This document shows positions 3,222-29,584 of a stretch of DNA of 48,744 bases, in pieces. Position 1 is the first letter of the stretch, and each line of letters begins with the position of its first letter. The stretch spans positions 1-48,744 of the forward strand of contig NZ_AOIQ01000015.1 in assembly GCF_000337515.1 (NCBI RefSeq), given 5' to 3'. The stretch comes from Halovivax asiaticus JCM 14624. GTDB taxonomy: Archaea; Halobacteriota; Halobacteria; Halobacteriales; Natrialbaceae. A model generated the notes under the pieces. That model was not told the DNA's origin. It saw only the letters and a list, made by a program, of their open reading frames with translations, and made no database searches. The position numbers and the translations under genes were made by a program.

Positions 3222-4484
3222 ATGGCGCCACGAACCGACGACGAGATTCGCCGAGCGGTTGTCGACCAGCTTCGAACGGTCGAGCTGCCGGGTGGAGATC
3301 CGATCGCCGAGGGGATCATCGAAACCGTCCGTGCCGACGACGGCATCGTGACACTCACCGTCGCGTTCGATCGACTCGACCAGCGGACGGCCGAGCGCGT
3401 CGCTGATCAGCTCCGGGGCGCCGGTCTGTCGACGGCGGGCGTCGACCACGTCCGGCTCGAAGCCGTCGACGCCGCGGCGCCGGCGTCCGGGCTGGCGATC
3501 ACCGGCGTCGATTCCGTGCTCGCGGTCGCCAGCGCGAAAGGCGGCGTCGGAAAAACGACGGTGACGGCCGGCCTCGCTCGCGCGCTCCATGCCGCCGGGC
3601 TCGACGTCGCGGTCTTCGACGCCAACGTCTACGCGCCCGACCTCCCGGACCTGCTGGGGGTGACGGGTCCGGTTCCGCAGACGCCCGCCGGCCGACTGCA
3701 GCCGGTCGACGCCGACGGGATCGAGGTCGTGAGTCTGGAACTGATCGCCGACGATGGGCCGACCGCCTGGCGCGGTGCGATGGTTCACGACGTCCTCACG
3801 GACCTCGTAGAAGATGCCGCCTGGGACGACCGGGACGTGCTTCTCGTCGACCTTCCGCCTGGGATCGGCGACGCCGTCTACACGATCGTCCAGCAGGCGC
3901 CCCTGGACGGCGGATTGTTGGTCACCACGCCGACCGATGCGGCCGTCCGGGCCGCCGAACGGACGGGTGCCCTGTTCGCGGCGAACGACGTCGATACGAT
4001 CGTGGTTCCGAACATGGTCGCGACCGACGCGGACCGCGGACCGTTCGACGACTGGGACGGTGCTCCCCGGATCGATGCTGCGGCCACAGCCGCGCCGGTC
4101 CCGTTCGATCCGTCGCTCCGGGAGCCGACGGCGCGTTCGTTCGCCGACCCGACGACGCCCGGCGCGCGGGCCATCGCCGCCCTCGGCGAGACGGTCGCTT
4201 CGTTCCGCGAGGAGAGGGCCGGGCCGCAGCCGCTCGCCGACGCCATCGACCTTCGGGGGTTGCCGCCCGCCGCACGCAGGCGACAGGCGATGGGCGAACT
4301 GGGCCGCGAAACGGCGATTACGCTCCGTCTCCGTCACGACCCGTCGGCGCTGGTCGCGGACGTCGAGGCGGCCCTCGAACGGGGTGATCGTCGCCTCGCG
4401 GAAACGACGGCGACCGATCTCGGGCGGGACGGCTGGCGCCTCGATCTCGCGGCCGAACCGGCGGAACCGCCGGTGCTAGAGTGA
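3222..4484 (+). CDS. Mrp/NBP35-like P-loop ATPase with N-terminal MIP18 domain, lacking the CxxC pair
   Basis: A 420-aa Mrp/ApbC-like ATPase, the family that carries and inserts Fe-S clusters. Residues 1-80 look like a MIP18 (DUF59) domain. The deviant Walker A SAKGGVGKTT is at residues 104-113, followed by the VFDANVYAPDLP switch and Walker B VLLVDLPPGIGD near residue 210. In standard Mrp proteins the sequence after the conserved NM carries CPxC cysteines that hold the cluster; here residues 264-278 read NMVATDADRGPFDDW with no Cys. A roughly 90-residue C-terminal extension follows residue 330. The gene precedes the molybdoenzyme operon, separated by a 258-bp leader with its own TATA-like boxes, so co-regulation is possible but not shown. 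It may help assemble the many clusters of the downstream enzyme, or it may have become a regulator. Confidence 0.82.
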   Translation: MAPRTDDEIRRAVVDQLRTVELPGGDPIAEGIIETVRADDGIVTLTVAFDRLDQRTAERVADQLRGAGLSTAGVDHVRLEAVDAAAPASGLAITGVDSVLAVASAKGGVGKTTVTAGLARALHAAGLDVAVFDANVYAPDLPDLLGVTGPVPQTPAGRLQPVDADGIEVVSLELIADDGPTAWRGAMVHDVLTDLVEDAAWDDRDVLLVDLPPGIGDAVYTIVQQAPLDGGLLVTTPTDAAVRAAERTGALFAANDVDTIVVPNMVATDADRGPFDDWDGAPRIDAAATAAPVPFDPSLREPTARSFADPTTPGARAIAALGETVASFREERAGPQPLADAIDLRGLPPAARRRQAMGELGRETAITLRLRHDPSALVADVEAALERGDRRLAETTATDLGRDGWRLDLAAEPAEPPVLE

Positions 4485-4742: not shown

Positions 4743-7700
4743 ATGGGTGAGGATGGCGAGCTCGAACTGAGCCGCCGGGAACTGGGCGCTGCGGCCGCGG
4801 GAACGGCCGTCGCGTCCGGTCTCGGGATCCTGGGCTACCGTCGACTGACGCGTGAGGGGGACCCGGGCGAGGACGGTCCGATGAACCCGCTGGCGGAGTA
4901 CCCCAACGAGGGGTGGGATCAGAAGTATCGCGACATCTGGGAGCCCGACGACTCCTTCGTGCTTACCTGTACGCCAAACGACACGCACAACTGCTACCTC
5001 GAGGCCACCGTCAAGAACGACCAGATCACTCGTCTGGGTCCGTCGATGAACTACGGCGAGGCGATGGATCTCGACGGGAACCAGGCCTCCCAGCGCTGGG
5101 ACCCGCGGGTCTGTAACAAGGGGCTGGCGATGGTCGAACGGTTCTACGACGAACGTCGGGTCAAGGCCCCGATGGTTCGCGAGGGATTCATGCAGTGGGT
5201 CGAGGACGGCTTCCCCCGCGACGCGGACGGCTCGATGCCCGAAGCGTACGCCAGGCGCGGTGAGGACGGCTTCGTCGAGGTGTCCCACGAGGAGGCTCAC
5301 GAACTCGCCGCGCGGACGTTCCTCGAACTCGCCGAGTACTACAGTGGTGAGGACGGTACGGAGTCGTTGCTCGACCAAGGCTACGACGAACGGGTCGTCG
5401 AGGAAACTCGGGGCGCCGGCGTCCGGACGATGAAGTTCCGGGGCGGCATGCCGCTTCTGGGCGTCATCAAGCTGTTCGGCCAGTATCGAAACGCCAACTC
5501 GATGGCGTTGCTCGACAACCACGTCCGCGACGTGAGCGAGGACGAGGCTCTGGGCGCGATGGGACTGGATAACTACTCCTTCCACACCGACCTGCCGCCG
5601 GGCCACACGATGGTCACCGGCCAGCAGACGGTCGACTTCGACCTCGCGAGCATCGAGTACGCCGACCACATCGTCCTCGACGGTATCAACTACCTGACAT
5701 CGAAGATGGCCGACTGTCACTGGTTGACCGAGGCTAAACTCAAGGGGTCGACGGTAACCGGGATCTTCACCGACTACAACGCGACGGCCTCGAAGTGCGA
5801 CGAGGTCGTCACGGTCCGGCCGGCGACGGATTCGGCGCTGTTCCTCGGGGCGGCGCGCATCCTCATCAAGGACGAACTGTACGACGAAGCGTACGTCCGC
5901 AAACATACGGACCTGCCGCTTCTGGTCCGGCTGGACGAGAACGAACTCCTCCGGGCGAGCGACGTCTTCGAGGGATACGAACCCGATGACCTGGAGAAGA
6001 CCGACGCCGTGGCCGGCGATGGAGACAGGCCCGGGGTCGACGTGACGGACGTCGACGAGCAGGTCATTACCGAGGAACTACGGCGCGAGTGGGGCGACTT
6101 CGTCGTTCACGACGCCGACAGCGGCGCGTTCGAACCGGTTACCCGCGACGATATCGGTGACGACTTCGAGGTGCCCGCGACGATCGAGGGCGAGTTCGAG
6201 ATCGATCTGGCCGACGGCGAGACGGTCCGCGTTCGGACCGTGTTCGATCTGATCAAAGAGTCCCTGGTCGAGACGTGGGATCTGGCGTCGACCGCCGCGG
6301 TCACGGGCACCGATCCGCAGGCGATCGAGAACCTGGCCCGGGACTTCGCCGATAACCAGCAACGTACGATGCTCCTGACCGGGATGGGGCCGAACCACTA
6401 CGCGAACGCCGATCAGCACGGCCGCGCCGCGTTCCTGCTCGCGGCGCTGACGCGAAACGTCGGCTACCGGACCGGGAACGTCGGCTCGTACTCCGGGAAC
6501 TACCGGATGGCGTACTTCAACGGCGTCAGCCAGTACGCCAACGAGGACCCGTTCGATCCGGAACTCGATCCAGCGGCACCGGCCCGGACCGACAAGCGCT
6601 GGGACGCCCACTCGGCCCACTTCTACACGAACCTCGATAAGCCGCTGACGGTCGACGGCGAGTACTTCCAGGGTGACTCGCACATGCACACGCCGACGAA
6701 GTCGCTCTGGGTGTCGGGGTCGAACTCCATCCTCGGCAACGCGAAAGGGGCCTACAAGATCATCGAGAAGGCCCTCCGGACCGGGCGCATCGAGGCCTTC
6801 TTCACCAACGAGTGGTGGTGGTCGATGACCTGCGAGTACTCCGACATCGTCTTCCCGGCGGACTCGTGGGCCGAACACCACGTCCACGACATCACCGCCT
6901 CCGTCACGAACCCCTTCATCACGACGATGCCGGAGACGGAGATCGATCGGATATACGACACCAAAAACGACGCGCAACACTACAAGGGCGTCGCCGAGAA
7001 ACTCGCGGAGTTGACGGGGGACGACCGCTTCGCCGACTACTGGGCCTTCGTCGACGAATCGGAGTACCGGGCCAAGCCCTACCTCCAGCGCATCCTCGAT
7101 CGCTCGAACGCCGTCAAGGGGTACGACATCGAGGACTTGCTGGCGGACGCTCGCGAGGGGACGCCGGCGATCATCATGACCCGGACCTACCCCAAGCACG
7201 TCGGCAACGAGCAGACGCGGGACAGTCGGCCCTGGTACACGAAGACTGGGCGGCTGGAGTTCTTCCGCGAGGAAGCGGAGTTCGCCGAGGCCGGCGAACA
7301 CATCCCGCTCCACCGGGAGCCGATGGACGCGACTCCCTACGAACCGAACGTGATCGTCGACGACAGCGACAGCCCGGTGGTCGCCCCCGAGACGCCGGAC
7401 GACCGCGGCTGGGACAGCGCGGCGACGGCCCGGGACACCAGCGACCGGCAGGTGCGCAACGTCGTTACCTCGCCGTCGGAACTGGTCGAGAGTACCCACC
7501 CGCTGACGGTCCTCGACGAGGGCTACGACTACGTCTACATGACGCCGAAGTACCGCCACGGGACCCACACCTTCGGGAGCGATCTCAAGCAGATGGCGGT
7601 CTGGTGGAGCAATTACGGCGACATGGGCCGCGAGACGGAGCGCGACTCCTTCGACGAGCGCAAGCCCTACGTCGGCGAGGGTTTCGTCGAGATGAACCCC

Positions 7701-8282
7701 GAAGACGCCCGCGAGGAGGCCCTCCAGGACGGCGACTACGTCTGGGTCGACGCCGATCCGTCCGATCGGCCGGTCCCGGGGGGCGACGCCGCCGACCCGG
7801 ACTATACGCGCGCGCTGATGCGAGTGCGGTACCAGCCGAGCCTGCCCCGCGGGGTGACCCGGAGCTGGATGAACGTCCCCCAGACGTCCCACAAGTCCTA
7901 CGGGGCCACCCAGGAGCGCGATGACGGGAAGGCCGAGGCCGAGGACACCAACTACGTGTCGATGTACCGCCAGGGCGGCCACCAGTCGGCGACGACGACC
8001 TGGCTGCGCCGAACGTGGCTCACCGACTCGATGGCCCGCAAGGACATGCTCGGACAGAACATGGACGTCGGGTTCGAGCCGGACGTCCACGCCGCCAACG
8101 GTGCACCAAAGGAGTCCTTCGTGCGGATCGAGAAGGCCGAGGACGGCGGTGTGAACGAGGCCGGCGACCCCGGGGGCAACTGGCGACCGGTCGACGAGGG
8201 CGTCCGGCCGACCCGGGAGGACGACCGAATGACCCGCTACCTGCGGGGCGATTTCACGACCGAATCGGAGGGAGGTGACTAA
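4743..8282 (+). CDS. NxrA/NarG-like molybdopterin oxidoreductase catalytic subunit (Tat-exported)
   Basis: A 1179-aa type II DMSO-reductase-family enzyme. The N-terminus carries a Tat signal (SRREL at residues 10-14, then an Ala/Gly-rich core), so the active site should face outside. The first Fe-S cluster motif reads C76-x3-D80-x3-C84 with C124, unlike the H-x3-C-x3-C of NarG. The stretch YSFHTDLPPGH contains Asp283, at the position of the Asp ligand to molybdenum. Motifs such as CTPNDTHNC, KFRGGMPLLG, ANSMALLD and DLPPGHTMVTGQQT match, from memory, the periplasmic nitrite oxidoreductase NxrA of Nitrospira and anammox bacteria, which is of similar length (about 1150 aa). The substrate is most likely nitrate/nitrite; related enzymes act on chlorate, selenate or hydrocarbons. 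I preferred the ATG at 4743, directly before the Tat motif, over the GTG at 4719. A Shine-Dalgarno sequence for the beta subunit overlaps its 3' end. Confidence 0.88.
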   Translation: MGEDGELELSRRELGAAAAGTAVASGLGILGYRRLTREGDPGEDGPMNPLAEYPNEGWDQKYRDIWEPDDSFVLTCTPNDTHNCYLEATVKNDQITRLGPSMNYGEAMDLDGNQASQRWDPRVCNKGLAMVERFYDERRVKAPMVREGFMQWVEDGFPRDADGSMPEAYARRGEDGFVEVSHEEAHELAARTFLELAEYYSGEDGTESLLDQGYDERVVEETRGAGVRTMKFRGGMPLLGVIKLFGQYRNANSMALLDNHVRDVSEDEALGAMGLDNYSFHTDLPPGHTMVTGQQTVDFDLASIEYADHIVLDGINYLTSKMADCHWLTEAKLKGSTVTGIFTDYNATASKCDEVVTVRPATDSALFLGAARILIKDELYDEAYVRKHTDLPLLVRLDENELLRASDVFEGYEPDDLEKTDAVAGDGDRPGVDVTDVDEQVITEELRREWGDFVVHDADSGAFEPVTRDDIGDDFEVPATIEGEFEIDLADGETVRVRTVFDLIKESLVETWDLASTAAVTGTDPQAIENLARDFADNQQRTMLLTGMGPNHYANADQHGRAAFLLAALTRNVGYRTGNVGSYSGNYRMAYFNGVSQYANEDPFDPELDPAAPARTDKRWDAHSAHFYTNLDKPLTVDGEYFQGDSHMHTPTKSLWVSGSNSILGNAKGAYKIIEKALRTGRIEAFFTNEWWWSMTCEYSDIVFPADSWAEHHVHDITASVTNPFITTMPETEIDRIYDTKNDAQHYKGVAEKLAELTGDDRFADYWAFVDESEYRAKPYLQRILDRSNAVKGYDIEDLLADAREGTPAIIMTRTYPKHVGNEQTRDSRPWYTKTGRLEFFREEAEFAEAGEHIPLHREPMDATPYEPNVIVDDSDSPVVAPETPDDRGWDSAATARDTSDRQVRNVVTSPSELVESTHPLTVLDEGYDYVYMTPKYRHGTHTFGSDLKQMAVWWSNYGDMGRETERDSFDERKPYVGEGFVEMNPEDAREEALQDGDYVWVDADPSDRPVPGGDAADPDYTRALMRVRYQPSLPRGVTRSWMNVPQTSHKSYGATQERDDGKAEAEDTNYVSMYRQGGHQSATTTWLRRTWLTDSMARKDMLGQNMDVGFEPDVHAANGAPKESFVRIEKAEDGGVNEAGDPGGNWRPVDEGVRPTREDDRMTRYLRGDFTTESEGGD

Positions 8283-8284
8283 CG

Positions 8285-9478
8285 ATGGCAACCGTCTACA
8301 ACTGGCAGATCGGCCGCGAGATGGAGTATCCCTACCCGGAAGCGCGTCCGGAGAAACAGTGGGGCGCCGTCTTCGACCTGAACAAGTGCATCGCGTGTCA
8401 GACCTGTACGCTCTCGTGTAAGACGACCTGGACGAACAACGAGGGCCAGGAGCACATGTTCTGGAACAACGTCGAGACGAAGCCCTACGGATCGTATCCC
8501 CTCCAGTGGGACGTCGAGATCCTGGATCGACTCGGCGTCAGCGAGTGGAGTTCCGACGGCGTCTACGAGGGTGATACGATCTTCGAAGCCCGCGACGTAG
8601 ACTGGGAGGACATGGCGGTCGACGGCGATCCCGAAACCATGCACGCGAAGGGGATCGAGGGGTATCGTCCCGAGAAGCGCGACTGGGCGCAACCGAACCT
8701 CGGCGAGGACGAACCCGCCGGGAAGGCCGTCGAATCGGATACCCACATCGACGGCGACCACCATCCGACGTGGTTCTTCTACCTGCCGCGGGTGTGCAAT
8801 CACTGCACGTTCGCCGCCTGCGCCGGCGGCTGTCCCGTCCAGGCTATCTACAAGCGCCAGGAGGACGGTATCGTCCTGCTCGACGAGGACAGCTGCGAGT
8901 CCTACACGGAGTGTGTCAGGGCGTGCCCGTACGGCAAGTCGATGTACAACCCCGTCGAACTGAACTCCCAGAAGTGCGTCGGCTGTTATCCGAAAGTCGA
9001 GCAGGGACGCGTTCCACAGTGTTTCGAGAACTGCCTGGGCAAGATCCGGATGCATGGGTGGGTCAACCGACCCGACGAGGCCGACCCGTCGGCCCCGGTC
9101 GATTATCTGGTCCACGAGGCCGAAGTCGCCCTTCCGCTGTACCCGCAACTGGGCCTGGAGCCCAACGTCTACTACATCCCGCCGATCAACGTGCCGACGG
9201 ACTACTTGACGCAAATGTTCGGCCCGCGCGTCGAGGACGCCCAGGAAACCTACCGGCGCGCTCGTCGCGGCGACGAGGAGTACCGAAAACTGCGCGCAGT
9301 TCTCCACCTGATGGGATCGACCGAGTGGCGCATCGAGGCGTTCGAGGTCACCGAGGACGAAGCGATCGGCTACGACGCCGACGGCTCGACGGTCGCCCGC
9401 GTCCCCATGACGGAACCGCAGTACGAACGCGAGCGCTTCGATGCGGACAACGACGTCTACCGACTCGACATCACGTAA
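8285..9478 (+). CDS. NxrB/NarH-like four-cluster iron-sulfur subunit
   Basis: A 397-aa electron-transfer partner starting 2 nt after the catalytic subunit, behind a near-perfect Shine-Dalgarno (GGAGGTGA, 8271-8278). Sixteen cluster positions are visible: C35/C38/C41/C45; C171/C174/C179/C183; C204/Y207/C210/C214; C231/C234/C246/C250. In the third group the second Cys is replaced by Tyr207, so it probably holds a [3Fe-4S] cluster, as in NarH and NxrB. The N-terminus (VYNWQIGREMEYPYP), the WNNVETKPYGSYP block and the ALPLYPQLGLEPNVYYIPP block match, from memory, Nitrospira-type NxrB rather than classical haloarchaeal NarH. It has no signal peptide and would be carried out by the Tat signal of its partner. 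It passes electrons between the molybdenum site and a third subunit that is not encoded here. Confidence 0.9.
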   Translation: MATVYNWQIGREMEYPYPEARPEKQWGAVFDLNKCIACQTCTLSCKTTWTNNEGQEHMFWNNVETKPYGSYPLQWDVEILDRLGVSEWSSDGVYEGDTIFEARDVDWEDMAVDGDPETMHAKGIEGYRPEKRDWAQPNLGEDEPAGKAVESDTHIDGDHHPTWFFYLPRVCNHCTFAACAGGCPVQAIYKRQEDGIVLLDEDSCESYTECVRACPYGKSMYNPVELNSQKCVGCYPKVEQGRVPQCFENCLGKIRMHGWVNRPDEADPSAPVDYLVHEAEVALPLYPQLGLEPNVYYIPPINVPTDYLTQMFGPRVEDAQETYRRARRGDEEYRKLRAVLHLMGSTEWRIEAFEVTEDEAIGYDADGSTVARVPMTEPQYERERFDADNDVYRLDIT

Positions 9479-9480
9479 CC

Positions 9481-10479
9481 ATGTCAGATCCGACCCTTCC
9501 CACCTCGAAACCCGACGCGTCCACGGGCGATCCGGATCGATCCGGCGCCGACTGTGACGAGTCAGCGCCCGAGACCGGGCAGTCGACGTTCGAGTCTGGC
9601 GAGTCCACGCCCGAACCCGGCCAGTCCGCGTCCGAACCTGATCGGTCGACCACGCCATCATACCGGTCCACGACTGCGGCCGAGCACGTTCACCGCGCAC
9701 GCCTGTACAAACTCGTCTCGCTAGCCTTCGACCGACCAGGCGAACCGCTCGCGGCGGCGCTGCGTTCTGAAACGTTCGCCGAGCAGGTACGCGAGTCGGC
9801 GACCGCGCTCGACGGCGCGACCGAAGCGGGGACCGAGGGCCGCGACCTCGCGGACGACGCGACGGCCGTCGCCGAGGCGAGTCCAACCGAGTCCGCCGGC
9901 GTCGACGACCTCGCCGCGGACTGGGCCGCGCTGTTTGGCTTCGAAGCCGGCGGCGACGTCTCCCAGTACCAGGCCGCCTACGCGCCGGGGACGCTCGTCA
10001 CGAACACGGACCTGCTTGCCGACATTGCCGGCTTCTACGCTGCGTTCGACCTCTCGACGGCTGACGACGGGTCCGAACGCGTCGACCACCTCTGCCTCGA
10101 ACTCGAGTACGTCTCCCACCTCGCCCTGCAGACCGCGTACCTGCTGCGTCGGGGCGACGACGCCGGCGTGGAAGTCGTGGCCGGGGCCCAGGCGGACTTC
10201 CTCGAAGATCACCTCGGCCGCTGGACGGGCCGGTACCGTGACGCGGTCCGGGCAGACGCAGATGCCGGATTCTACCCGACGCTCGCGTCGCTGGTCGAGA
10301 CGCTGGTCACGGCCGACCTCGACCGGTTCGATCGCGATCCGGATCCCTATCCCGAGACGCCGCCGGCACCCCTCGCCGAGCGCCGGGACGACGAGGGCGA
10401 TTTCCGGTGTGGGACCTGCGGGGTCGCGCCGTCGCCGCCTACCGCACCGTCGGAACGCTCTCCACAGGACCCGACCTGA
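9481..10479 (+). CDS. TorD/NarJ-like molybdoenzyme assembly chaperone
   Basis: A 332-aa protein starting 2 nt after the beta-subunit stop codon. From residue 65 it shows the all-helical TorD/DmsD pattern: RARLYKLVSLAFDRPGEPL at the first helix, DLAADWAALFGF, then the family-typical DHLCLELEYVSHLAL and FLEDHLGRW. Such chaperones bind the Tat signal of the catalytic subunit and hold it until the cofactor is loaded. The first 60 residues are an unusual low-complexity Ser/Thr/Pro/Glu/Asp tail with approximate repeats of the type ESxPEPGQS. The C-terminus carries a CGTC pair (FRCGTCG) that could bind metal. Its place between enzyme and mobA genes supports the role. Confidence 0.83.
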   Translation: MSDPTLPTSKPDASTGDPDRSGADCDESAPETGQSTFESGESTPEPGQSASEPDRSTTPSYRSTTAAEHVHRARLYKLVSLAFDRPGEPLAAALRSETFAEQVRESATALDGATEAGTEGRDLADDATAVAEASPTESAGVDDLAADWAALFGFEAGGDVSQYQAAYAPGTLVTNTDLLADIAGFYAAFDLSTADDGSERVDHLCLELEYVSHLALQTAYLLRRGDDAGVEVVAGAQADFLEDHLGRWTGRYRDAVRADADAGFYPTLASLVETLVTADLDRFDRDPDPYPETPPAPLAERRDDEGDFRCGTCGVAPSPPTAPSERSPQDPT

Positions 10480-10493
10480 TATAGTTCAGACGC

Positions 10494-10748
10494 ATGTCAT
10501 CACTACCTTCAGCCGCCGGCGTTTCACGGGCCGCGCTGCAGGCCCGCTCACGAACGCTCGTCAAGACGGTTGTCTACCGAATTCTGATGGTGATCGTCAC
10601 CGTCACCGTCGCGTTTTTCGTCACCGGAAACGTCACCGACGCGGCGACGATCGGCCTCGGGACGAACGTGGTGAAGACGGGCACCTACTACGGCTACGAG
10701 CGCGTCTGGGCGCACGTCGACTGGGGGCTCGCGGAGGGGGTATCGTGA
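10494..10748 (+). CDS. DUF2061 small membrane protein
   Basis: An 84-aa protein with two hydrophobic segments: residues about 25-45 (TVVYRILMVIVTVTVAFFVTG) and a weaker amphipathic helix after ATIGLGTNVVKTG. The pattern RTLVKTVVYR...TGYYGYERVWAHVDWG is that of DUF2061 proteins, small inner-membrane proteins sometimes found near sulfur or nitrogen redox genes. It starts 14 nt after the chaperone gene and its stop codon overlaps the mobA start (GTGA at 10745-10748), so it belongs to the operon. It has no haem-ligand His pairs that would make it a gamma subunit. Function unknown; it might help tether the enzyme. Confidence 0.75.
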   Translation: MSSLPSAAGVSRAALQARSRTLVKTVVYRILMVIVTVTVAFFVTGNVTDAATIGLGTNVVKTGTYYGYERVWAHVDWGLAEGVS

Positions 10749-11359
10749 CGACCGGCATCATCCTCGCCGGCGGCAGATCCCGTCGGTTCGAATCGCGGGA
10801 CAAACTTACGGCGACCATCGCCGGCCGACCGATGATCGCCCACGTCGCGGCGGCCCTCGACCCGGTAGTCGACGGTCTCGTCGTCTCCTGTCGGGCCGAT
10901 CAGGTGCTTGCGCTCGAAGACGCACTCGGGCGGAAGTCACAGTCGATCGCGTTCGTCCCCGATCGCGTTCCGGATCGGGGACCGCTCGGCGGGTTCGCGG
11001 CAGCGACCGAGGCCACCGCGAGTCGTAACGTGGCCGTCGTCGCCGGCGACATGCCGCTCGTGACTCCGTCAGTCGTCGAGGCGTTGCTATCGAATCACGC
11101 CCGTGAGTGCACCGTCCCGGTCTCGATCGAGGGAGCAGTGCAGCCGCTCTGTGCCGTGTACCGTCGGCGGCCGGCCGGAGACGCAGCCAGGGCGGCGCTC
11201 GATGCCGGCGAGCGCGCCGTTGCGACGCTACTCGACCGCCTTTCGGTCGAAACGGTCGACGGTATCGCCGCGCAGAACCGACCGGGTCCCTTCTTCGACG
11301 TCGACACGCCGGCCGACCGCCAGCGGGTCGCGTCCCTCCTCGCAGGTGGTGTGGCGTGA
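10745..11359 (+). CDS. mobA: molybdenum cofactor guanylyltransferase MobA
   Basis: A 204-aa nucleotidyltransferase that attaches GMP to molybdopterin, making the MGD form used by DMSO-reductase-family enzymes. The N-terminal signature LAGGRSRRFESRDK (residues 7-20) is the MobA GTP-binding loop, although the usual Gly before the Asp-Lys region is replaced by Glu-Ser-Arg. Further landmarks are DRGPLGG, the metal-binding VVAGDMPLV, QPLCAVYRR and the C-terminal FFDVDTPAD. The GTG start at 10745 overlaps the stop of the DUF2061 gene by 4 bp, and its own stop overlaps mobB the same way, so translation is probably coupled. The linkage to the molybdoenzyme explains its presence here. Confidence 0.88.
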   Translation: MTTGIILAGGRSRRFESRDKLTATIAGRPMIAHVAAALDPVVDGLVVSCRADQVLALEDALGRKSQSIAFVPDRVPDRGPLGGFAAATEATASRNVAVVAGDMPLVTPSVVEALLSNHARECTVPVSIEGAVQPLCAVYRRRPAGDAARAALDAGERAVATLLDRLSVETVDGIAAQNRPGPFFDVDTPADRQRVASLLAGGVA

Positions 11360-11835
11360 AGGTGCTGGGGATCGTGGGGCACAGCGACGCGGGAAAGACG
11401 ACACTTCTCGAGCGACTCGTTCCCGCGTTCGGTTCGACGACCCGCGTCGCGACCGTGAAATCGATTCATCACGACATCGAACTCGACACGCCCGGCTCGG
11501 ACACGCATCGGCACGCGACGGCCGGTGCGGAAACCGTCGTCGGGATAACCCCCTCGCGGACGTTCGAGATCAGGCGGCGTCCCGGGGGCGGTGAGTCCGC
11601 GGCGAAACTGTTCGCGCTTCGGAATCGCCTGATCCGACTTCGGGAGCGCGACTACGATGTCGTCCTCGTCGAAGGGTTCCACCGCGCTCGGTGTCCAAAA
11701 CTCGTCGTCGGTGAGCGAGTCCCCGACGAGACGGCACCGAGGGTCCTCGCCCACGTTGCGGGACCGGATGCCCTCGACGTCCAGGCGCTCGTCGCGACGG
11801 TGCTGTCGGGAGAGGCGGACGAACGAGACGGGTGA
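11356..11835 (+). CDS. mobB: MobB-type molybdopterin-guanine dinucleotide biosynthesis GTPase
   Basis: A 159-aa P-loop protein. Walker A is GHSDAGKTT (residues 8-16). The family pattern of strand-switch-strand follows: VATVKSIHHD, TPGSDTHRHATAGAE (the DTxxHxxAGA MobB motif) and the Walker-B-like VVLVEGFHR with the following KLVV. MobB aids MobA in guanylation or delivery of the cofactor. The GTG start at 11356 shares four bases (GTGA) with the mobA stop. This is the last gene of the molybdoenzyme operon; the next gene is on the other strand, so transcription must end between 11836 and 11900, where I see no clear hairpin. Confidence 0.86.
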   Translation: MKVLGIVGHSDAGKTTLLERLVPAFGSTTRVATVKSIHHDIELDTPGSDTHRHATAGAETVVGITPSRTFEIRRRPGGGESAAKLFALRNRLIRLRERDYDVVLVEGFHRARCPKLVVGERVPDETAPRVLAHVAGPDALDVQALVATVLSGEADERDG

Positions 11836-13559: not shown

Positions 13560-14555
13560 CTACTCTCGATCAACCGACACCGCGACGCGATCGCCGATCG
13601 CGAACGCCCGATCCGGACAGATCAGCTTCGGCCCGAATCCGTCGTCACGAGCGCAGGAAAGTGAGAGGCCGGTCACCGGCTCCCCGTCGACGAGCACCCT
13701 GGCATCGCCCCAGTGGATCGTCCGTCCGTCTGCCCGGCCGATCGCGTCTCCGTTCAGCCGGACCGACTGCGCCGCCCTCCCGCCCTCCGGAGCGGGCTCG
13801 GCCCGTCGAGGGGACTCGTTCGTCGGTCGGCTTTCGTCGGTCCCGTGGAGGACGCCACCCGTCTCGTAGTGTGGCAGGCCGCCGTCTAGCACGCCACCGT
13901 CGTCGGCCGCGATTCCGACCCACTCGTCGCCGGGTGACGGGTGGCCGGGCGCGTCGAGGATCGCGTAGGTCTCGCCGGTGGCGACGACGGTCCCCGTCCC
14001 GTCCCAAGTGAGCGGCCGGACGGCGACGCCGAGGTCGATCGGGAGCGAGCCCGATGCGCGGTGGAGGTTCTGTTTCGCCGTCCGGAATCCCACGTGGAGG
14101 TGGGTGCCGACCCAGGGGGCGAAGAAGCCGGCGCGGACGAGCGTGCCGAGGTCGTCGCCGATCGCGACACGGTCGCCGGTTTCGACGACGGGATCGACGT
14201 GGAGGATTCGGGCGACGAGCCCGCGGAGGGGCGCCGGTGTCTCGACGTCCACGAGAAGTAGGTGGTCGTGGTCGGGTGCGTAGGGTTTTGGTGGGGCGCG
14301 AACCGTCCGCGTCTCGCGGACAGTCCCGCCGACGGGCGACGGCGCGGCGGTGGCGAGCCCGGCGTCGGGGTCGCTGTCGCCGGGGTAGAGGTCGATCGCG
14401 CAGCCCGCGTCGTGGGCCGGATAGGGCGAGTTATAGAGGGAGAACCGGCGGTACTGGTCGAGCACGTCCTCGCCGAGGGTGACACGATGCGTTCCGTTGG
14501 CCGCTCCGCCTTCCGTCGGATCTCGCTCGTGCTCGCTGCCACCACCGTCGGTCAT
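13560..14555 (-). CDS. M23-like (lysostaphin-fold) protein, probably cytosolic
   Basis: A 331-aa protein with the order of elements of M23 peptidases or other duplicated-hybrid-motif proteins. HDAGCAIDLYPG (about residues 48-59) parallels the HxGxD strand; the pattern SPVGGTV, DHDHLLLVDV, LHVDPVVETGDRVAIGDDLG and GTHLHVGFR follows the M23 fold through to its H-x-H pair. No signal peptide is visible: the N-terminus is acidic and polar. The C-terminal third holds a Pro/Glu/Arg linker and a beta-rich segment ending in FAIGDRVAVSVD. Archaea of this group have no peptidoglycan, so the role is unclear: a peptidase for another substrate, or a non-catalytic relative. It is divergent from the lipoate-ligase-like gene with only 55 bp between. 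Confidence 0.7.
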   Translation of the reverse strand: MTDGGGSEHERDPTEGGAANGTHRVTLGEDVLDQYRRFSLYNSPYPAHDAGCAIDLYPGDSDPDAGLATAAPSPVGGTVRETRTVRAPPKPYAPDHDHLLLVDVETPAPLRGLVARILHVDPVVETGDRVAIGDDLGTLVRAGFFAPWVGTHLHVGFRTAKQNLHRASGSLPIDLGVAVRPLTWDGTGTVVATGETYAILDAPGHPSPGDEWVGIAADDGGVLDGGLPHYETGGVLHGTDESRPTNESPRRAEPAPEGGRAAQSVRLNGDAIGRADGRTIHWGDARVLVDGEPVTGLSLSCARDDGFGPKLICPDRAFAIGDRVAVSVDRE

Positions 14556-14610
14556 CGGCCGAACCTGCGAGTCGCGTAGGTTTACCTCGTTCGGGTTCGA
14601 ACCGTCGACT

Positions 14611-15330
14611 GTGACGGTCTACGTCTATCGCGGGCGCGGTGAGACCATCCCCGCCGATCGCGAGGCCAGCCAGCGCCTGCTCGACCACGCGGCCGACGGC
14701 GACCGGGCGGTTCGCGTCTGGACGCCGCACCGACAGGTCGCGTTCGGGCGGCGAGACGCCAATCGGGACGGGTTCGAACGGGCCCGGGGCCTCGCCGCGG
14801 AACGGGGGTTCCAGCCGGTCGAGCGACGGGTCGGTGGGCGGGCGGTCGCTTACGACGGCGAGACGGCACTGGCGTTCGCTCGTGCCGAACCCGTCGCCGA
14901 CCTCCGCTCCGGCATTCAGGACCGCTACGCGTCGCTGACCGGGACTGTCGTCGACGGCCTCGACGCGGCTGGCGTCACCGTCGTCGAGGGAGAACCGCCG
15001 AACTCGTTCTGTCCGGGGTCACATTCGCTCCGTCTTCCCGATGGCGGGAAAGTCGTCGGGCTCGCCCAGCGCGTCACCGCTGACGGGGCACTGGGGGCCG
15101 GGATCTGCCTCGTCGACAACGCCGAGCCCATCGCCGACGTGTTGCAGGCTGTCTACGAGGCGCTCGACGTTCCGTTCGATCGGCGAACGGTCGGGTGCGC
15201 CGGCCCGGCCGTCGCAGGGACCGATGCGCACGCGACCGTTCGCACATCGATCGAAGACGCCCTGTCCGCCCCCAGTGGCGCCGAACAGAGCGACCGAGAT
15301 GGGACCGACGTGCGGATCCGGACCGTCTGA
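14611..15330 (+). CDS. lipoate-protein ligase A family protein
   Basis: A 239-aa protein of the BPL/LplA fold, starting with GTG at 14611. Recognisable parts: VRVWTPHRQVAFGRRDA (acyl-binding strand pair), ERGFQPVERRVGGRAVAY (the family RRVxGGxAVxxD-like motif, here RVGGRAVAYDGE), then PNSFCPGSHSLRLPDGGKVVGLAQRV, where the Lys of GGKVVG corresponds to the catalytic Lys of the family, and GICLVDN. It would attach or transfer lipoate, octanoate or another acyl group to a carrier domain. No lipoyl-domain protein is encoded nearby, so the partner is unknown. The first codons lie only 55 bp from the divergent M23-like gene, with the promoter squeezed between. Confidence 0.78.
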   Translation: MTVYVYRGRGETIPADREASQRLLDHAADGDRAVRVWTPHRQVAFGRRDANRDGFERARGLAAERGFQPVERRVGGRAVAYDGETALAFARAEPVADLRSGIQDRYASLTGTVVDGLDAAGVTVVEGEPPNSFCPGSHSLRLPDGGKVVGLAQRVTADGALGAGICLVDNAEPIADVLQAVYEALDVPFDRRTVGCAGPAVAGTDAHATVRTSIEDALSAPSGAEQSDRDGTDVRIRTV

Positions 15331-21127: not shown

Positions 21128-21790
21128 ATGTCACGAAGCGGAACGCTAGAGAAGGCACAGATCATGATCGTCAACGGGAAACAGGGGGGTGAGACGATCG
21201 AGTGCTCGTTCAATCCGAACTCGTACACGGTAGAAAAGAGCGTCAACTACGGTGAGATGAAAGCGACGGGGTCGGGTGCGTCGATCATGCAGTTCGTCGA
21301 CGGAAACGCCGAACGTCTCTCGATGGAGTTGTTTTTCGATACGACCGACGAGCTCGACGAGGACGGTGCGACGGTCGACGTTCGCGAGCGGTATACCAAA
21401 CACATCGACACGCTGCTGTCGGTCGACGGCGAACTCCACGCGCCACCAGTCTGCCGGTTCGTCTGGGGCGACGGTATCACCTTTACCGCGCTGCTCGAAC
21501 GGGCGAACAAGCAATTCACGAAGTTTCTGCCGAGCGGTGTCCCGATCCGGGCGCGCGTCTCGGTCGTCTTCACGGAGTACAAGACGGCCGACTACCACAA
21601 GTCGGAGGTCTCGCCCGAGTCGACGGACAAGACCAAGGTCTGGACGGTGACGGAGGGCGATACGCTCTGGTTGATCGCCTCGGAGGAGTACGGCGACCCC
21701 TCCCACTGGCGGACGATCGCCGAGCAGAACGACATCGAGAACCCGCGGGCGATCGCGGCGGGTGAGCGACTCGAACTGCCGCCGCTGTAA
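21128..21790 (+). CDS. contractile injection system LysM tube/baseplate protein (Pvc7-like)
   Basis: A 220-aa protein starting at the base after the previous stop codon. Residues 1-165 match the N-terminal domain of CIS tube-associated proteins: ECSFNPNSYTVEKSVNYGE, then SMELFFDTTDELDEDG, VRERYTKHIDTLLSVDG, PPVCRFVWGDGITFTALLERANKQFTKFLPSGVPIRARV. Residues 172-220 form a LysM domain (VTEGDTLWLIASEEYGDPSHWRTIAEQN...IAAGERLELP). In Photorhabdus PVC and related systems this protein (Pvc7, T4 gp53/54-like) joins the inner tube to the baseplate hub. It is the first clearly recognisable structural gene here, and it implies that an inner tube is encoded somewhere. Confidence 0.85.
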   Translation: MSRSGTLEKAQIMIVNGKQGGETIECSFNPNSYTVEKSVNYGEMKATGSGASIMQFVDGNAERLSMELFFDTTDELDEDGATVDVRERYTKHIDTLLSVDGELHAPPVCRFVWGDGITFTALLERANKQFTKFLPSGVPIRARVSVVFTEYKTADYHKSEVSPESTDKTKVWTVTEGDTLWLIASEEYGDPSHWRTIAEQNDIENPRAIAAGERLELPPL

Positions 21791-21804
21791 TCGAGCGACG
21801 CCAC

Positions 21805-22827
21805 ATGAGTACGATAGACAACCACCCACGATACTCACCCCGCTTCACCGTCGACGTCGGCGGCCAGACGTTTCAGGAGCCGGGCGGTCGAATCGCCGAC
21901 CTCGTCGTCGAAACCTCCTTCGAGGGTGCCGATCGGTTTTCGTTCACCCTGAACTATCCGTTCGACGAGGAACTCGACGAGTTCGCGGGACTGAACTGGG
22001 ACGACTTCGCCATCGGGACGGACGTCGATATCTCGATGGGATACGGCGACGACGGGCAGCTCACGCCACTGCTGTCGGGAAAGATTCAGTCGGTTTCGGG
22101 GGAGTTCACGCTCGACCGCGGCCCGTCGGTCCAACTCTCGGGGTACGGACTGCTCTGGGCGCCGATGCAGGGGACGCGATCCGACTCGTGGTCGGAGACG
22201 ACGGTGGGCGCGGCCGTCGAAGACGTCCTCTCGTCGTACGCGTTCTCCTCGATCGACGTCCAGAGTGCCGATATCAAGCGAGAGAAACTCATTCAGGACG
22301 GGAAGACCGATTACCGCTTTATCCAGGATCTGGCGGCGACCTACGGCTTCGAATTTTACGCGACGCGCGAGACGGTTCGGTTCGTCCCGCGATCGAGCGC
22401 CGTCGACGACGACCCGGCCGTCGAACTCTGGTACGGAGAAGCACTGCACGACTTCTTCGGCGAGTGCACCCAGCAGAAACAGGACTACCGGGTCGAGGTT
22501 CGGTCGTGGGACGTCGGGAAACGAGAGGAGATCACGGCGACCGCGGGCAGCGCGAGCGCGGCTCACAAAGAGGTGTTCAGAGTGCCAGCCATGTCACGAG
22601 ACGAGGCCAAACGCATCGCAACGACGAAACACAACCAGTACGCAGACGGGATCGTCACCGGCCACGGTGAGGCAGACGGCATTCCCGAGATTCGGGCCGG
22701 GGAGACGATCGAACTGGCCGAACTCGGCTCCAGATTCTCCGGACGGTATCACGTGACCAAGGCGACCCACCGGATGGGTGCCTCGGGCTACCGGACATCG
22801 TTCGAGGTCGTGGAGGTGCCGGCATGA
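21805..22827 (+). CDS. gp27-like baseplate hub protein (late control D / VgrG N-terminal domain)
   Basis: A 340-aa protein of the phage late-control-D family, which forms the trimeric hub below the tube. Recognisable features are SPRFTVDVGGQTF at the start, the strand pair around GTDVDISMGYG and LLSGKIQSVSGEF, the helix-strand KTDYRFIQDLAATYGFEFYA (equivalent to the tDyeFLxRLAExxGf motif of VgrG), and the C-terminal VTGHGEADGIPEIRAGETIELAELGSRFSG...TKATH. In many CIS the hub and spike are one polypeptide (Pvc8/VgrG); here the spike is a separate gene whose ATG overlaps this stop (ATGA, 22824-22827), so they are translated together. Confidence 0.87.
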   Translation: MSTIDNHPRYSPRFTVDVGGQTFQEPGGRIADLVVETSFEGADRFSFTLNYPFDEELDEFAGLNWDDFAIGTDVDISMGYGDDGQLTPLLSGKIQSVSGEFTLDRGPSVQLSGYGLLWAPMQGTRSDSWSETTVGAAVEDVLSSYAFSSIDVQSADIKREKLIQDGKTDYRFIQDLAATYGFEFYATRETVRFVPRSSAVDDDPAVELWYGEALHDFFGECTQQKQDYRVEVRSWDVGKREEITATAGSASAAHKEVFRVPAMSRDEAKRIATTKHNQYADGIVTGHGEADGIPEIRAGETIELAELGSRFSGRYHVTKATHRMGASGYRTSFEVVEVPA

Positions 22828-23564
22828 CGCGTGCGGGCGTCTTCGACGGCGAGACTTCCGACGGTGGGATTCAGGGCGTCGTCGTCGGTATCGTCACCGA
22901 CAACGAGGATCCGAAGGATCTCGGTCGGGTCAAGCTCAAGTTCCCCTGGCGCGACGCCGACGACGAGAGCTACTGGGCGCGGATCGCGACGACCATGACC
23001 GGGGACGGCTATGGCTCGTACTTCCTCCCGGAGGTCGACGACGAGGTCCTCGTCGCGTTCGAGAACGGCGACATTCACACGCCGTTCGTCGTCGGCTCGC
23101 TCTGGAACGGCAAGCAAAAGCCACCGCAGACGAACACCGAGGGGAAAAACGACGTTCGCGAGATCCGCTCGCGGAGCGACCACGCCATCACCTTCGACGA
23201 CGCCGACGAGGGCTCGATCACGATCGAGACGAGCGGCGGACACGAGATCCGCATCGACGATTCGAGCGGGTCGGAGACGGTTTCGATCAGCGACGAGAAG
23301 GGCGACAACGCCATCACGCTCGATTCGTCGGGCGGTAGTGTCTCCATCGAGGCGGCGAAGGAACTCGACCTGAAAGCGCCCACGATCACGGTCAACGGGA
23401 CAAAGAAGCTGAAGCTCTCCGGCGGCACCGCCGTCGACGTCTCGAGCAAGAACAAGGTCTCGCTCTCGAGTAACGCGCAGGTCGCGATCTCGTCGTCCGG
23501 CTTGATGAAGATCGATTCCACGGGCCCGATGACGCTCAAAGGGGCCCTGATCCAGCTCAACTGA
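22824..23564 (+). CDS. gp5/VgrG-like spike protein with OB fold and beta-helix (baseplate V)
   Basis: A 246-aa spike protein. Residues about 18-110 are the OB-fold domain typical of baseplate V: GVVVGIVTDNEDPKDLGRVKLKFPW, YWARIATTMTGDGYGSYFLPEVDDEVLVAFENGD and TPFVVGSLWNGKQKPP. Residues about 115-246 have the regular strand rhythm of an intertwined beta-helix needle (SITIETSGGHEIRIDD, NAITLDSSGGSVSIEAAKELDLKAPTITVNG...). It would trimerise under the hub and carry the PAAR tip encoded next. There is no lysozyme domain, unlike T4 gp5. It overlaps the hub gene by 4 bp. Confidence 0.87.
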   Translation: MTRAGVFDGETSDGGIQGVVVGIVTDNEDPKDLGRVKLKFPWRDADDESYWARIATTMTGDGYGSYFLPEVDDEVLVAFENGDIHTPFVVGSLWNGKQKPPQTNTEGKNDVREIRSRSDHAITFDDADEGSITIETSGGHEIRIDDSSGSETVSISDEKGDNAITLDSSGGSVSIEAAKELDLKAPTITVNGTKKLKLSGGTAVDVSSKNKVSLSSNAQVAISSSGLMKIDSTGPMTLKGALIQLN

Positions 23565-23574
23565 GGACATCTCT

Positions 23575-23865
23575 ATGAAACCAGCAGCCAGACTCGGCGA
23601 CCAGACCGCACACGGAACGCCACTGACCGGTACCGCCAGTCCGAACGTCCTGATCGGCAAAAAGCCCGCGTGGCGCGCGCTGGGTGACGTCCACACCTGT
23701 CCGTTGACGACGGGTGTCGTCCCCCACGTGGGCGGCCCCGTCGTCGCGGGGAGTACGTCCGTCCTGATCAACAAACTCCCCGCCGCCAGGATGGGTGATA
23801 CGATCGTCGAGAGCGGGCCGCCGAACACGATCGCGGCCGGCTGTCCCAGCGTCCTCATCGGCTAA
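23575..23865 (+). CDS. PAAR-domain spike tip protein
   Basis: A 96-aa PAAR protein that caps the spike and makes it sharp. The PAAR-type repeats are visible: MKPAARLGDQTAHGTP, then ALGDVHTCPLTTGVVPHVGG and LPAARMGDTIVESGPPNTIAAGCPSVLIG. His near residue 13, His/Cys in DVHTC and the Cys in AAGCP are the likely metal ligands. There is no C-terminal extension, so it carries no fused effector. It lies 10 nt after the spike gene with a purine-rich site (GAGGA), and 2 nt before the gp25 gene. Confidence 0.88.
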   Translation: MKPAARLGDQTAHGTPLTGTASPNVLIGKKPAWRALGDVHTCPLTTGVVPHVGGPVVAGSTSVLINKLPAARMGDTIVESGPPNTIAAGCPSVLIG

Positions 23866-23867
23866 CC

Positions 23868-24266
23868 ATGGCTGACGAATTTCTCGGCTCCGGCTGGCGG
23901 TACCCGGTTCGACCGGACCATCGCGGCGATCTCGCCCTCTCGTCCGGTGAGGACGACATTCAGGAAGCGATTCGGCTCATCCTGGGGACGGCGAAGGGTG
24001 AGCGACTCATGCGTCCGGAGTTCGGCTGTGATATCCACGACCACGTCTACTCGTCGGCGTCGCCGGCGACGCTGAATCTGATCGAGAACTCCGTCCACGA
24101 GTCGCTGGTTCGCTGGGAGCCGCGGATCGACGTCGAGAACGTCTCGGCGCGGACCGACGCGGACGAGCCCAACCGGGTCCTGATCGAGATCGACTACCGG
24201 GTCCGGACGACGAACAGTCTCGCGAACATGGTCTACCCGTTCCACATCACCGAAGGCGATGGGTGA
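23868..24266 (+). CDS. gp25-like baseplate wedge protein (GPW/gp25)
   Basis: A 132-aa baseplate wedge protein. The family pattern is clear: LGSGWRYPVRPDHRGDLALSSGEDDIQEAIRLILGT, then AKGERLMRPEFGCDIHDHVYSS, where ERxxRPEFG is the gp25 core (the EPR-like motif needed for baseplate and sheath contact), and ALxNSVHESLVRWEPRIDVENV. In T4-like tails gp25 starts sheath polymerisation, so its presence suggests that a contractile sheath is part of the complete system. The reading frame ends 6 nt before the GTG of the J gene. Confidence 0.9.
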   Translation: MADEFLGSGWRYPVRPDHRGDLALSSGEDDIQEAIRLILGTAKGERLMRPEFGCDIHDHVYSSASPATLNLIENSVHESLVRWEPRIDVENVSARTDADEPNRVLIEIDYRVRTTNSLANMVYPFHITEGDG

Positions 24267-24272
24267 GCACGC

Positions 24273-27200
24273 GTGAGTCAGGGACCACGACTGGGTGACC
24301 GCGACCAGGAGGCGGTGTTCGAGACGCTACTCGAGCGTGCCGACGCCTACACTGAGGCGTGGGACCCACGGACGCCCGACGCCGGCCGGGCGCTGGTTCG
24401 GATCTTCTCGCAGTTCGAGGCGGATCTCCGGACCAGACTGGCAGAGGTACCGGAGAAACACCGACTCGCGTTCCTCGACGCGCTCGATTTCGACCGGCGG
24501 CCGCCCCAGGCCGCACGCGTCCCCCTCACGTTTCAGGTATCGACCGATCTGGATCGGAACGTGGCGATTCCGGCGGGGACGCAGGCGGTCGCCGAGACGG
24601 GGTCGGGGGAGCCGCAGGTGTTCGAACTGCCCCAGGAGGGCGGCTTCGAGGCGACCGGCGCGAGGCTCGCCGACCTCGTCGCCGTCGACCCCTCGACGGA
24701 TCGGATCGTCGCACACGACGAACTCGTCGACGACGATGGTCCCGTCACGCTCTTCGACGGGGAGAATCGGCAGGCGCACGTCCTCTATCTCGGGAGCGAC
24801 GCTGCGCTCACGCTCGATTCGGGGTCGTCGTTCACGCTCTCGCTGACGACCGCGGACGACGCCGATCGGGTATTCGACGCAGTCGAGTGGGAGTACTACG
24901 GTGTCGATTCCGACGGCGACGAGGGCTGGCACCCGCTCACCGAGTCCACGGAGGGCGAGTGGGCCGACGAGGACGTCGGCGTCGAACGCTTACAGGAGCG
25001 ACTTCAGTCGCGATCGGCGACGGGTGATCGGTTCGAGGCGACTGACAGCCGCCACGCCGCCCGGACCTTTCGGTTGCCGGGGTCGACCGTCGAACACACC
25101 GTCGCCGGGACCACGAGCCGGTGGATTCGCTGTCGCCGGCGTGAGGCGTCGCGATCGCTCTCGGCGACGATTCGGTCGCTTGCGATCCACGTCGGCTGTC
25201 CCGACGGACGCGAACCGGATCAGTTGCTGTCGAACGACGTGCCGCTGTCGCCGACGGAGACGCTTCGGCCGTTCGGACGGATGCCCCATCCGCCGGCGAC
25301 GTTCTACGTCTCGTGTGAAGAAGCGTTCACGAAACCCGGCGGTGTCGTCGAACTCGAGTTCGTCCCACCATCGGACGGTGACGGCGCTGTGTCGGCGACC
25401 GATACGGGCGGAGCCGACAACGACGCCGGGCTGGCAGCCGGCGGCGTCGTCGGCGGACCGCCACACCTCTCCTGGGAGTACTGGAACGGCGACGGCTGGA
25501 CGCGACTGACGTCGGTGACCGACGAGACGGACGCGCTGACGACGGGCGGGCGCGTCAGTTTCGACGTACCCGACGATATCGAGCCGACGACCGTCTCGGG
25601 CCACGAGAACGTCTGGATACGCAGCCGGCTCGTCAGCGGCTCGTACGGCCAGCCGCAGTTCGACGTCACCGACGACGGCGAGCGCGGACGGCGTGTTTCC
25701 GACGCGGACGAGCCGGTCTTCGAGGAGTTGGTGGTCCACTACGACCGCGGCGAGCGCCCGTTCGAGGCGGTGTTTCGACACAACAACGCTTCGTACAGCG
25801 AGGATCTCGCTCCCCGCGACGGCTCGTTCGCCGCGTTCCGTGATCTGGCCGACGAGACGCAGACGGTTTACGTCGGCTTCGACGAACCGCTGCGAGACGG
25901 TCCCCTGTCGCTGTTCGTCCCGGTCGAGGACGCTCCGTACCCGCCCTCGTTCGACACCGCCGTCCAGTGGGAGTACTGTCCCGATCCGGCCAGCGGCGAG
26001 TGGGAACCGCTCGATGTCGTCGACCGGACCGCTGGCCTCACCGAGCGCGGGATGGTCACGTTCACGCTCCCGACCCCGACCCGGCCACTGTCGCTGTTCG
26101 GCCGGGAGCGCCACTGGATCCGCGCTCGCGTGACCAAAGACGAGTTCGACCTCTCGGCCGGTTCGATGGCGAACGCCTCGACGTCGCCAGCTTCCGACGA
26201 GGCGACTGCGGCGTCGGATCGGACGGCACCGCCGCCCGTTCTCGACGGCCTCTACAACAACACGGGGTGGGCGTACAACACGACGACGATCGAAGACGAA
26301 ATCCTCGGTTCGAGCGACGGCTCACACGAGCAGTCCTTCGGGTGCTCGCACGCGCCGCTGATCGACGTCGACGTGTGGGTGGACGAACACGCGACGCTTT
26401 CGGCCGGGGAGCGCCGACGGTTGCGCGAGACCCGTCCAGCCGACGTCGATCCCGAGTACGACGCACGCGGGGAGTGCAGCGCCTTCTGGGTTCGCTGGCA
26501 GGCCGTCGAGGACTTCCTCGATTCGGGGCCGATGGACCGGCACTACGTTTCCAATCGAACGCTCGGCGTGATCCAGTTTGGCGACGGCGACGCCGGTGCG
26601 ATCCCGCCGAGTGGCACCGACAACGTCCGGGCGACGTTCACGACCGGTGGTGGCCAGGATGGGACGGTCGAGGCCGGCGCGGTGACGACGCTCAACAGTT
26701 CGATCGCCCTCGTCGAATCCGTCACGAATCCGATGGCGGCCGACGGTGGCGCCGACACCGAGTCGACGGCGACGCTCGTCTCCCGGGCGACGAACCGACT
26801 CAAACATCGCGGGCGCGCCGTCACGCCGAGCGATTACGAGCAGGTGGCGATGGCGACGTTCCCGGAACTCGCGGTCGTCTCGTGTGATCCGTCGCTCGAT
26901 CGCCGAGCGGGCGAGTCCCGGGTGACGGTCCTGATCGTCCCGCAGACCGACCGGGAGAAGCCGGTTCCCTCCGTCGCACTCAAACACCGCGTTCGCGAGG
27001 CGCTCTACGACCGGGCACCCGCGTCGGTCGCGGCGGACGACGGTGCCGATATCGTCGTTCGTGGACCCGGCTACTGCGAGGTGTCGGTCGAGGCGACGGT
27101 CGAGGCGACGGGGGTCAAGAGCGTCTCACAGCTCAAGCGAACGATCTCGTCACGACTCGACGCCTACCTCCACCCGCTGTCGGGCAACGACGGGGACGGA

Positions 27201-27416: not shown

Positions 27417-27634
27417 GCGACCGGTCGATCGCTCACCGAGGGCGACGACTGTCGGCGTCGTTGGCTGCTGACGTGCCGTCATCAGTATCGATTGCTACCG
27501 ACGTGCCGTCGGTGTCGATGGCCGTCGACACACCGTCGGTGCCGGTAGCCGCCGATATGCTGGCGTGTTATCGATACCTGCCGGCACCGGCTCGCACGAG
27601 TGCCGACACGGAGGTGCCAGTCACATGGGAATAG
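27413..27634 (+). CDS. small repeat-bearing ORF between the two baseplate J genes
   Basis: A 73-aa ORF overlapping its upstream neighbour by 4 bp and the downstream start by 10 bp. That double overlap is the main argument that it is translated. The middle consists of three imperfect 9-10-residue repeats (AADVPSSVSI, ATDVPSVSM, AVDTPSVPV; bases 27464-27547) followed by an AADM start of a fourth. The N-terminus is basic (HRGRRLSAS), the C-terminus Pro/Ala/Thr-rich. No family recognised. It might be a structural linker or a remnant expanded by slippage of the 27-30-bp unit. Confidence 0.45.
   Translation: MSDRSIAHRGRRLSASLAADVPSSVSIATDVPSVSMAVDTPSVPVAADMLACYRYLPAPARTSADTEVPVTWE
27464..27550 (+). 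repeat. imperfect 27-30-bp tandem repeat
   Basis: Three tandem units (27464-27493, 27494-27520, 27521-27547) share the core GACGTGCCGTC or its variant GACACACCGTC, each encoding A-x-D-x-P-S-V. Unit lengths stay multiples of three, so the reading frame is kept. Confidence 0.6.
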
Positions 27635-29583: not shown

Positions 29584-29584
29584 G

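Follow-up and report, generated by a model that had tools for sequence, protein, structure and literature searches.

We find that the first Fe-S cluster site (FS0) of a catalytic subunit encoded in a 48,744-nt stretch of Halovivax asiaticus DNA (the whole stretch analyzed, hereafter the window) carries the ligand set Cys76, Asp80, Cys84, and Cys124. With a probability of roughly two in three, we consider that these residues hold the [4Fe-4S] cluster FS0 of an NXR-clade enzyme, as in Kuenenia NXR, and that the catalytic subunit A and its Fe-S partner B most likely act as an outer-face respiratory nitrate reductase. The original prediction had called the ligand pattern unusual. Judged from sequence, this apparently odd site is instead what normally marks the NXR-A clade of Mo enzymes; in that clade it is the rule, and it is already in print (PMC8387239). 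The less expected part is that the NXR-clade enzyme is carried by haloarchaea, mainly Natrialbaceae, where ordinary NarG is not found.

Translation of the plus-strand frame 4743–8282 confirms the reading Cys76-x3-Asp80-x3-Cys84 with Cys124, in the context LTCTPNDTHNCYLEA...WDPRVCNKG. The interval first given for the motif (4968–5116) does contain it, except that its end lies 2 bases past the last codon. Specifically, on the plus strand, Cys76 (4968..4970) sits at the place of NarG His49 and corresponds to Cys67 of Kuenenia NXR-A, Asp80 (4980..4982) to Asp71, Cys84 (4992..4994) to residue 75, and Cys124 (5112..5114) to residue 115. These equivalences follow from the phmmer alignment with chain 7b04_B, in which the first 100 columns (query residues 48–147, chain residues 39–138) have no gap. 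Alignments with NarG (3ir5) and NXR-A (7b04) bear out that the residues lie at the FS0 cluster: rather than falling away from it, Cys76 and Asp80 land on Cys67 and Asp71. As originally proposed, Cys holds the place of the NarG His and Asp stands where NarG has Cys, both in these alignments and in an alignment of 102 rows. The active-site Asn79 (4977..4979, plus strand; Kuenenia NXR-A Asn70) is Asn in every readable row, and the Mo ligand Asp283 (5589..5591, plus strand; Asp275) is Asp in 102 of 102. Both residues are common to all clades compared and are thus not diagnostic.

In the accessible portion of PMC8387239, Cys67 and Asp71 of Kuenenia NXR-A are treated as FS0 positions, and in the structure FS0 is bound by three Cys and Asp71. 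The same portion places the His of NAR and EBDH at the Cys67 position (EBDH having 3Cys/1His at FS0), remarks that the Asp there had been noted earlier still, and describes 3Cys/1Asp or 3Cys/1His ligation as varying by lineage, among NXRs and NARs alike. Because Asp71 ligation is published for Kuenenia NXR-A, the ligand pattern is already known. An altered FS0 potential arising from the Asp ligand, also put forward in the original prediction, is plausible.

The catalytic subunit as a whole is closest to NXR-A. The 1179-aa protein (4743..8282, plus strand) matches 7b04_B over residues 48–1171 (E = 3.1e-214), while in phmmer against PDB sequences perchlorate reductase comes next at 3.6e-46, followed by E. 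coli NarG entries at 2.4e-31 to 1.9e-29; in bit scores, NXR-A reaches 717 vs 161 for PcrA. The AlphaFold model gives the same order, with 7b04 as best fold match by 10 Z units (Z = 44.4, rmsd 3.0, 1029 aligned residues), against Z = 35 for PcrA and about 24–25 for the E. coli NarG entries. This model was built from 25 sequences and has a mean pLDDT of 71.3, with values below 50 at residues 118–125; as such, we use it for the fold only and not for ligand geometry. Curated family cut-offs are not reached, either for NarG (TIGR01580, 125 vs 1084 bits) or for DMSO_red_II_alp (TIGR03479, 263 vs 985 bits). Near the N-terminus (4770..4830, plus strand), the translation has SRREL followed by an Ala/Gly-rich stretch, which we take to be a Tat motif; its R11 and R12 are invariant in 11 haloarchaeal rows.

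The ligand set is conserved throughout the clade. A whole-protein search of 292 Halobacteria genomes (E <= 1e-100) finds 27 copies in 23 genomes (hereafter, holders), and C-x3-D-x3-C is present in the main frame of 26 of these, frames being chosen by whole-protein score alone; in the 27th, L027, the motif lies upstream in another frame. The motif is therefore no accidental reading. In the 102-row alignment (after removal of 28 duplicate rows, and with L099, a fragment that has the motif, left out), C-D-C-C is read in 43/43 readable haloarchaeal rows out of 45, in 2/2 sister rows, and in 24/24 bacterial rows. The two unreadable rows (L027 and L053) are broken at the site and have the motif in another frame. 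By contrast, all 26 ordinary haloarchaeal NarG rows, and E. coli NarG, have H-C-C-C, and a third haloarchaeal type has C-C-C-C in 4/4 rows. Related loci had also been gathered by a contig scan with two peptide patterns, which gave 59 loci, many of them the same copies, mostly from haloarchaea and chiefly from Natrialbaceae genera. One of these patterns (NDTHNCY) contains the Asp, and the 292-genome search is independent of it. Moreover, of the 24 bacterial rows, only L093 reads NDTHN; the remaining 23 have NDTHM, NDTHA, or NDTHE and must therefore come from the other pattern. The rows of a further alignment, A2, were chosen and trimmed by the motif, and its invariance is not taken as evidence.

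Outside the haloarchaea, the sister proteins come from one Deltaproteobacteria and one Nitrospinae MAG (52–53%), and bacterial NXR-type proteins stand at about 36%. Among the relatives in general, haloarchaeal ones included, many are draft genomes or MAGs. In a quick tree of 54 rows, the haloarchaeal rows form a single clade (SH-aLRT 100) whose neighbors are the two MAG proteins; the clade and these neighbors together join the bacterial NXR-type rows (SH-aLRT 100), apart from NarG. This tree has SH-aLRT support only, with long branches flagged at the deeper joins, and includes an Anammoxibacter row but no Nitrospira or Kuenenia rows. Some loci have features of their own. For example, in L027 (G131:C3) and L053 the N-terminal part of the A gene is in a different frame from the rest, which is either real or an assembly error, and six cases of two NXR-type A genes per species are seen (L052/L063, L046/L059, L067/L068, L047/L056, L049/L057, and L069/L070). 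The third type II enzyme, with C-x3-C-x3-C...C at FS0, is found at L126–L129 (G025, G004, G087, and G034), with EB_dh about 3 kb away in G025.

Downstream of A on the plus strand lies an NXR-B/NarH-type Fe-S subunit (8285..9478; 7b04_A, NXR-B, E = 5.9e-97) with 15 Cys, all kept in 55 rows apart from gaps. Residue 207 (Tyr207 here), in the motif of the fourth cluster, varies among these rows. NarH has four clusters, one of them [3Fe-4S], and the cluster motifs of B suggest that it probably has the same complement. The plus strand continues with a NarJ/TorD-type assembly chaperone (9481..10479; PF02613, E = 7.8e-16), a small DUF2061 membrane protein (10494..10748; PF09834), a MobA-like nucleotidyltransferase (10745..11359; PF12804), and a MobB-like protein (11356..11835; PF03205 at residues 86–202 of a longer frame, 11107–11832). 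Upstream of A, on the same strand, is an Mrp/ApbC-type P-loop ATPase (3222..4484; PF10609) with a Walker A motif and no Cys. Of 31 haloarchaeal loci, 26 have a homologue of this gene, which precedes A in 24 loci and lies downstream in 2 (L052 and L054); the 26 bacterial and sister loci have none. We do not press a role for it as a dedicated Fe-S carrier: among loci L041–L070, CxxC is present in 9 of the 26 homologues, and is missing from the other 17 and from the window copy.

Against Kuenenia stuttgartiensis NXR-ABC (7b04; PMC8387239), the window system shares the A and B subunits, their length, the FS0 ligands, and the equivalents of Asn70 and Asp275. It differs in being archaeal, in having the Mrp/ApbC-type gene upstream, and in its gamma subunit: a search of the window genome for a haem-b gamma gene (EB_dh, NXR-C) found none. 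By coordinates, EB_dh does not adjoin the A gene in any of the 23 holders, 7 of which have EB_dh elsewhere. EB_dh is present in 26/26 genomes of the bacterial and sister relatives, a count of presence per genome and not of adjacency to A, and it lies within a few kb of NarG in 5/5 ordinary-NarG genomes checked.

A ferredoxin-NrfD module, a candidate quinol partner, stands beside or near the A and B genes in three relatives, another difference from Kuenenia. In L044, about 2.7 kb containing unrelated frames separates A from B, which is followed by the chaperone, a ferredoxin (Ferredoxin_N domain), and NrfD. In L054, a MAG, the order is A, B in pieces, chaperone, ferredoxin, NrfD, small membrane protein, and Mrp/ApbC. 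In L147, the genes for ferredoxin, NrfD, small membrane protein, and Mrp/ApbC share the strand of A-B but are found about 3 kb further along, parted from them by an opposite-strand halocyanin-like gene and another frame; a chaperone-like frame is seen by eye after B. The halocyanin-like gene (L147 6259–6891, opposite strand), also identified by eye, appears to encode a lipoprotein. NrfD homologues are found in 35 of 37 holder genomes, the only genomes in which prevalence was counted; this includes the window genome, which has NrfD on a different contig (C6), accompanied there by separate ferredoxin and ApbC genes. Of the 18 holders with a NirK match (over the cut-off in 15), 10 have a NrfD no more than 10 kb from that match. 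A distance of 12 kb or less between NrfD and the A gene is seen in just 1 of 23 holders, L044 and L054 being additional. These proximity counts cover the 23 holders, without the 14 added genomes, and use NrfD matches with identities from about 60% upward; weaker matches are left out, as are two NirK pieces beside a NirK already counted. The module of ferredoxin, NrfD, and small membrane protein is also seen at L146 and L148.

Ordinary haloarchaeal NarG exceeds its family cut-off in 26 of 116 sampled Halobacteria genomes, but in 0/23 holders and in 0/14 further genomes from named loci, Halobiforma nitratireducens included; one of these 14 (G331), where the A gene is a fragment, gave no match at all. 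Since 20 of the 23 holders belong to a single family, none of whose sampled genomes had ordinary NarG, and only 3 lie outside it, this exclusion is largely a family split and not 23-fold independent evidence. The window genome has two NirK genes. Over the cut-off, NirK is found in 15/23 holders vs 10/22 same-family non-holders (Fisher P = 0.24), and including weak matches in 18/23 vs 11/22 (P = 0.065), the 22 non-holders being those shown in the search lists and not a random draw. The 20 kb on either side of the A genes contain no NirK. With that distance and P = 0.24, NirK is too weak to serve as proof of denitrification.

From this gene content, we infer that AB reduces nitrate in vivo. Nitrate reduction is favored because no other NarG of this kind is found, because NirK is present in 15 of 23 holders, and because three relatives have the NrfD module alongside or close to the A and B genes. 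A quinol partner would point in the same direction, as the nitrate/nitrite couple (about +0.42 V) is far above menaquinone. In the pathway we propose, the AB pair would probably be exported by Tat, and the clusters of B would receive quinol electrons by way of either the ferredoxin-NrfD module or a mobile carrier (halocyanin, for instance); from B the electrons would go on through FS0 to Mo, where nitrate would be reduced to nitrite on the outer face.

The enzyme might instead act on a different oxyanion (chlorate, perchlorate, or selenate) or on an organic substrate, as in other type II DMSO reductases. Perchlorate reductase and ethylbenzene dehydrogenase are indeed among the next solved relatives, and the available text of PMC8400030 allows that such enzymes may use several acceptors. 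We nevertheless regard this as unlikely, given that sequence and fold are far nearer to NXR-A than to PcrA (and PcrAB and ethylbenzene dehydrogenase, despite a shared fold and partner B, score much lower), and that it retains the equivalents of Asn70 and Asp275, although every clade compared does so. As a further alternative, Asp80 might not be a ligand, leaving FS0 either as a [3Fe-4S] cluster held by three Cys or absent. The protein is known here from sequence and a model that is weak at residues 118–125, and Asp-ligated iron is labile in some proteins. Still, Asp is found in 69/69 readable rows of the clade, and the Asp of the same column binds the cluster in the 7b04 structure (PMC8387239), and we consider this reading very improbable.

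The enzyme might also work in vivo as a nitrite oxidizer, like its counterparts in anammox bacteria and Nitrospira, with halocyanin or another high-potential carrier as electron acceptor. Its nearest relative with a solved structure is a nitrite oxidoreductase that works in both directions, no quinol subunit gene adjoins A in the window, and a halocyanin-like gene is part of the L147 cluster. However, the NirK genes of the window genome and of most holders make nitrite more likely an intermediate, NrfD comes after the chaperone gene, with ferredoxin between, in two relatives (L044 and L054), and the haem-b gamma gene is found neither in the window genome nor beside A in the holders. Moreover, titles and abstract openings of open-licence PMC literature name no nitrite-oxidizing haloarchaeon. 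Net nitrite oxidation is, on balance, improbable. We regard as very improbable the bolder idea of an NXR that, having shed its haem-b gamma subunit and taken a new partner, serves Natrialbaceae-type haloarchaea for nitrite oxidation or for a reversible nitrate/nitrite cycle.

The suggestion that the ligand set biases the enzyme toward one direction is not supported. According to PMC8387239, purified Kuenenia NXR, which has the same ligand set, catalyzes both reactions, at 61 nmol/min/mg for nitrite oxidation and 1.5 umol/min/mg for nitrate reduction with artificial partners—i.e. nitrate reduction is the faster direction under the assay partners used—and both kinds of ligand occur in NXRs and NARs. 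Should the haloarchaeal enzymes indeed be nitrate reductases, an identical set of residues would operate there in the opposite net direction, so that the ligand set tracks ancestry. The Asp marks the clade, and no link between it and direction is shown.

Ordinary haloarchaeal NarG (TIGR03479) shares with the window enzyme the organism class, the type II DMSO reductase architecture with Mo-Asp, and the probable function, but differs in its FS0 ligands, its shorter open frames (952–1101 aa), its clade, and the EB_dh gamma gene close by. E. coli NarG shares the overall fold (1q16 and mutants), Mo-Asp, Asn, and the chain of clusters, and differs at FS0 and in its lower fold score; it is cytoplasmic, with NarI as quinol subunit. 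An NXR-clade enzyme in haloarchaea is not named in the titles and abstract openings of open-licence PMC literature. In the available text of PMC8400030, however, six Natrialbaceae NarGs are longer than other haloarchaeal NarGs, and their Fe-S sites are called "very well conserved" (data not shown). By length and family, these six appear to be the NXR-type family seen here, in which case two of their four FS0 positions deviate from other haloarchaeal NarGs, a difference that the survey may have overlooked. The "longer NarG" of Natrialbaceae is thus probably an NXR-clade enzyme and not an ordinary haloarchaeal NarG, and a shared narG/nxrA label in gene surveys cannot separate these enzyme types. 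The three natural FS0 sets within one haloarchaeal class (H-C-C-C, C-C-C-C, and C-D-C-C) provide a series for studying FS0 tuning.

Elsewhere in the window, we also find a lipoate-ligase-like protein (14479–15327) and a group of contractile injection system genes (21128–31771) that includes CIS tube, GPD hub, two Baseplate_J, and Tail_P2_I.
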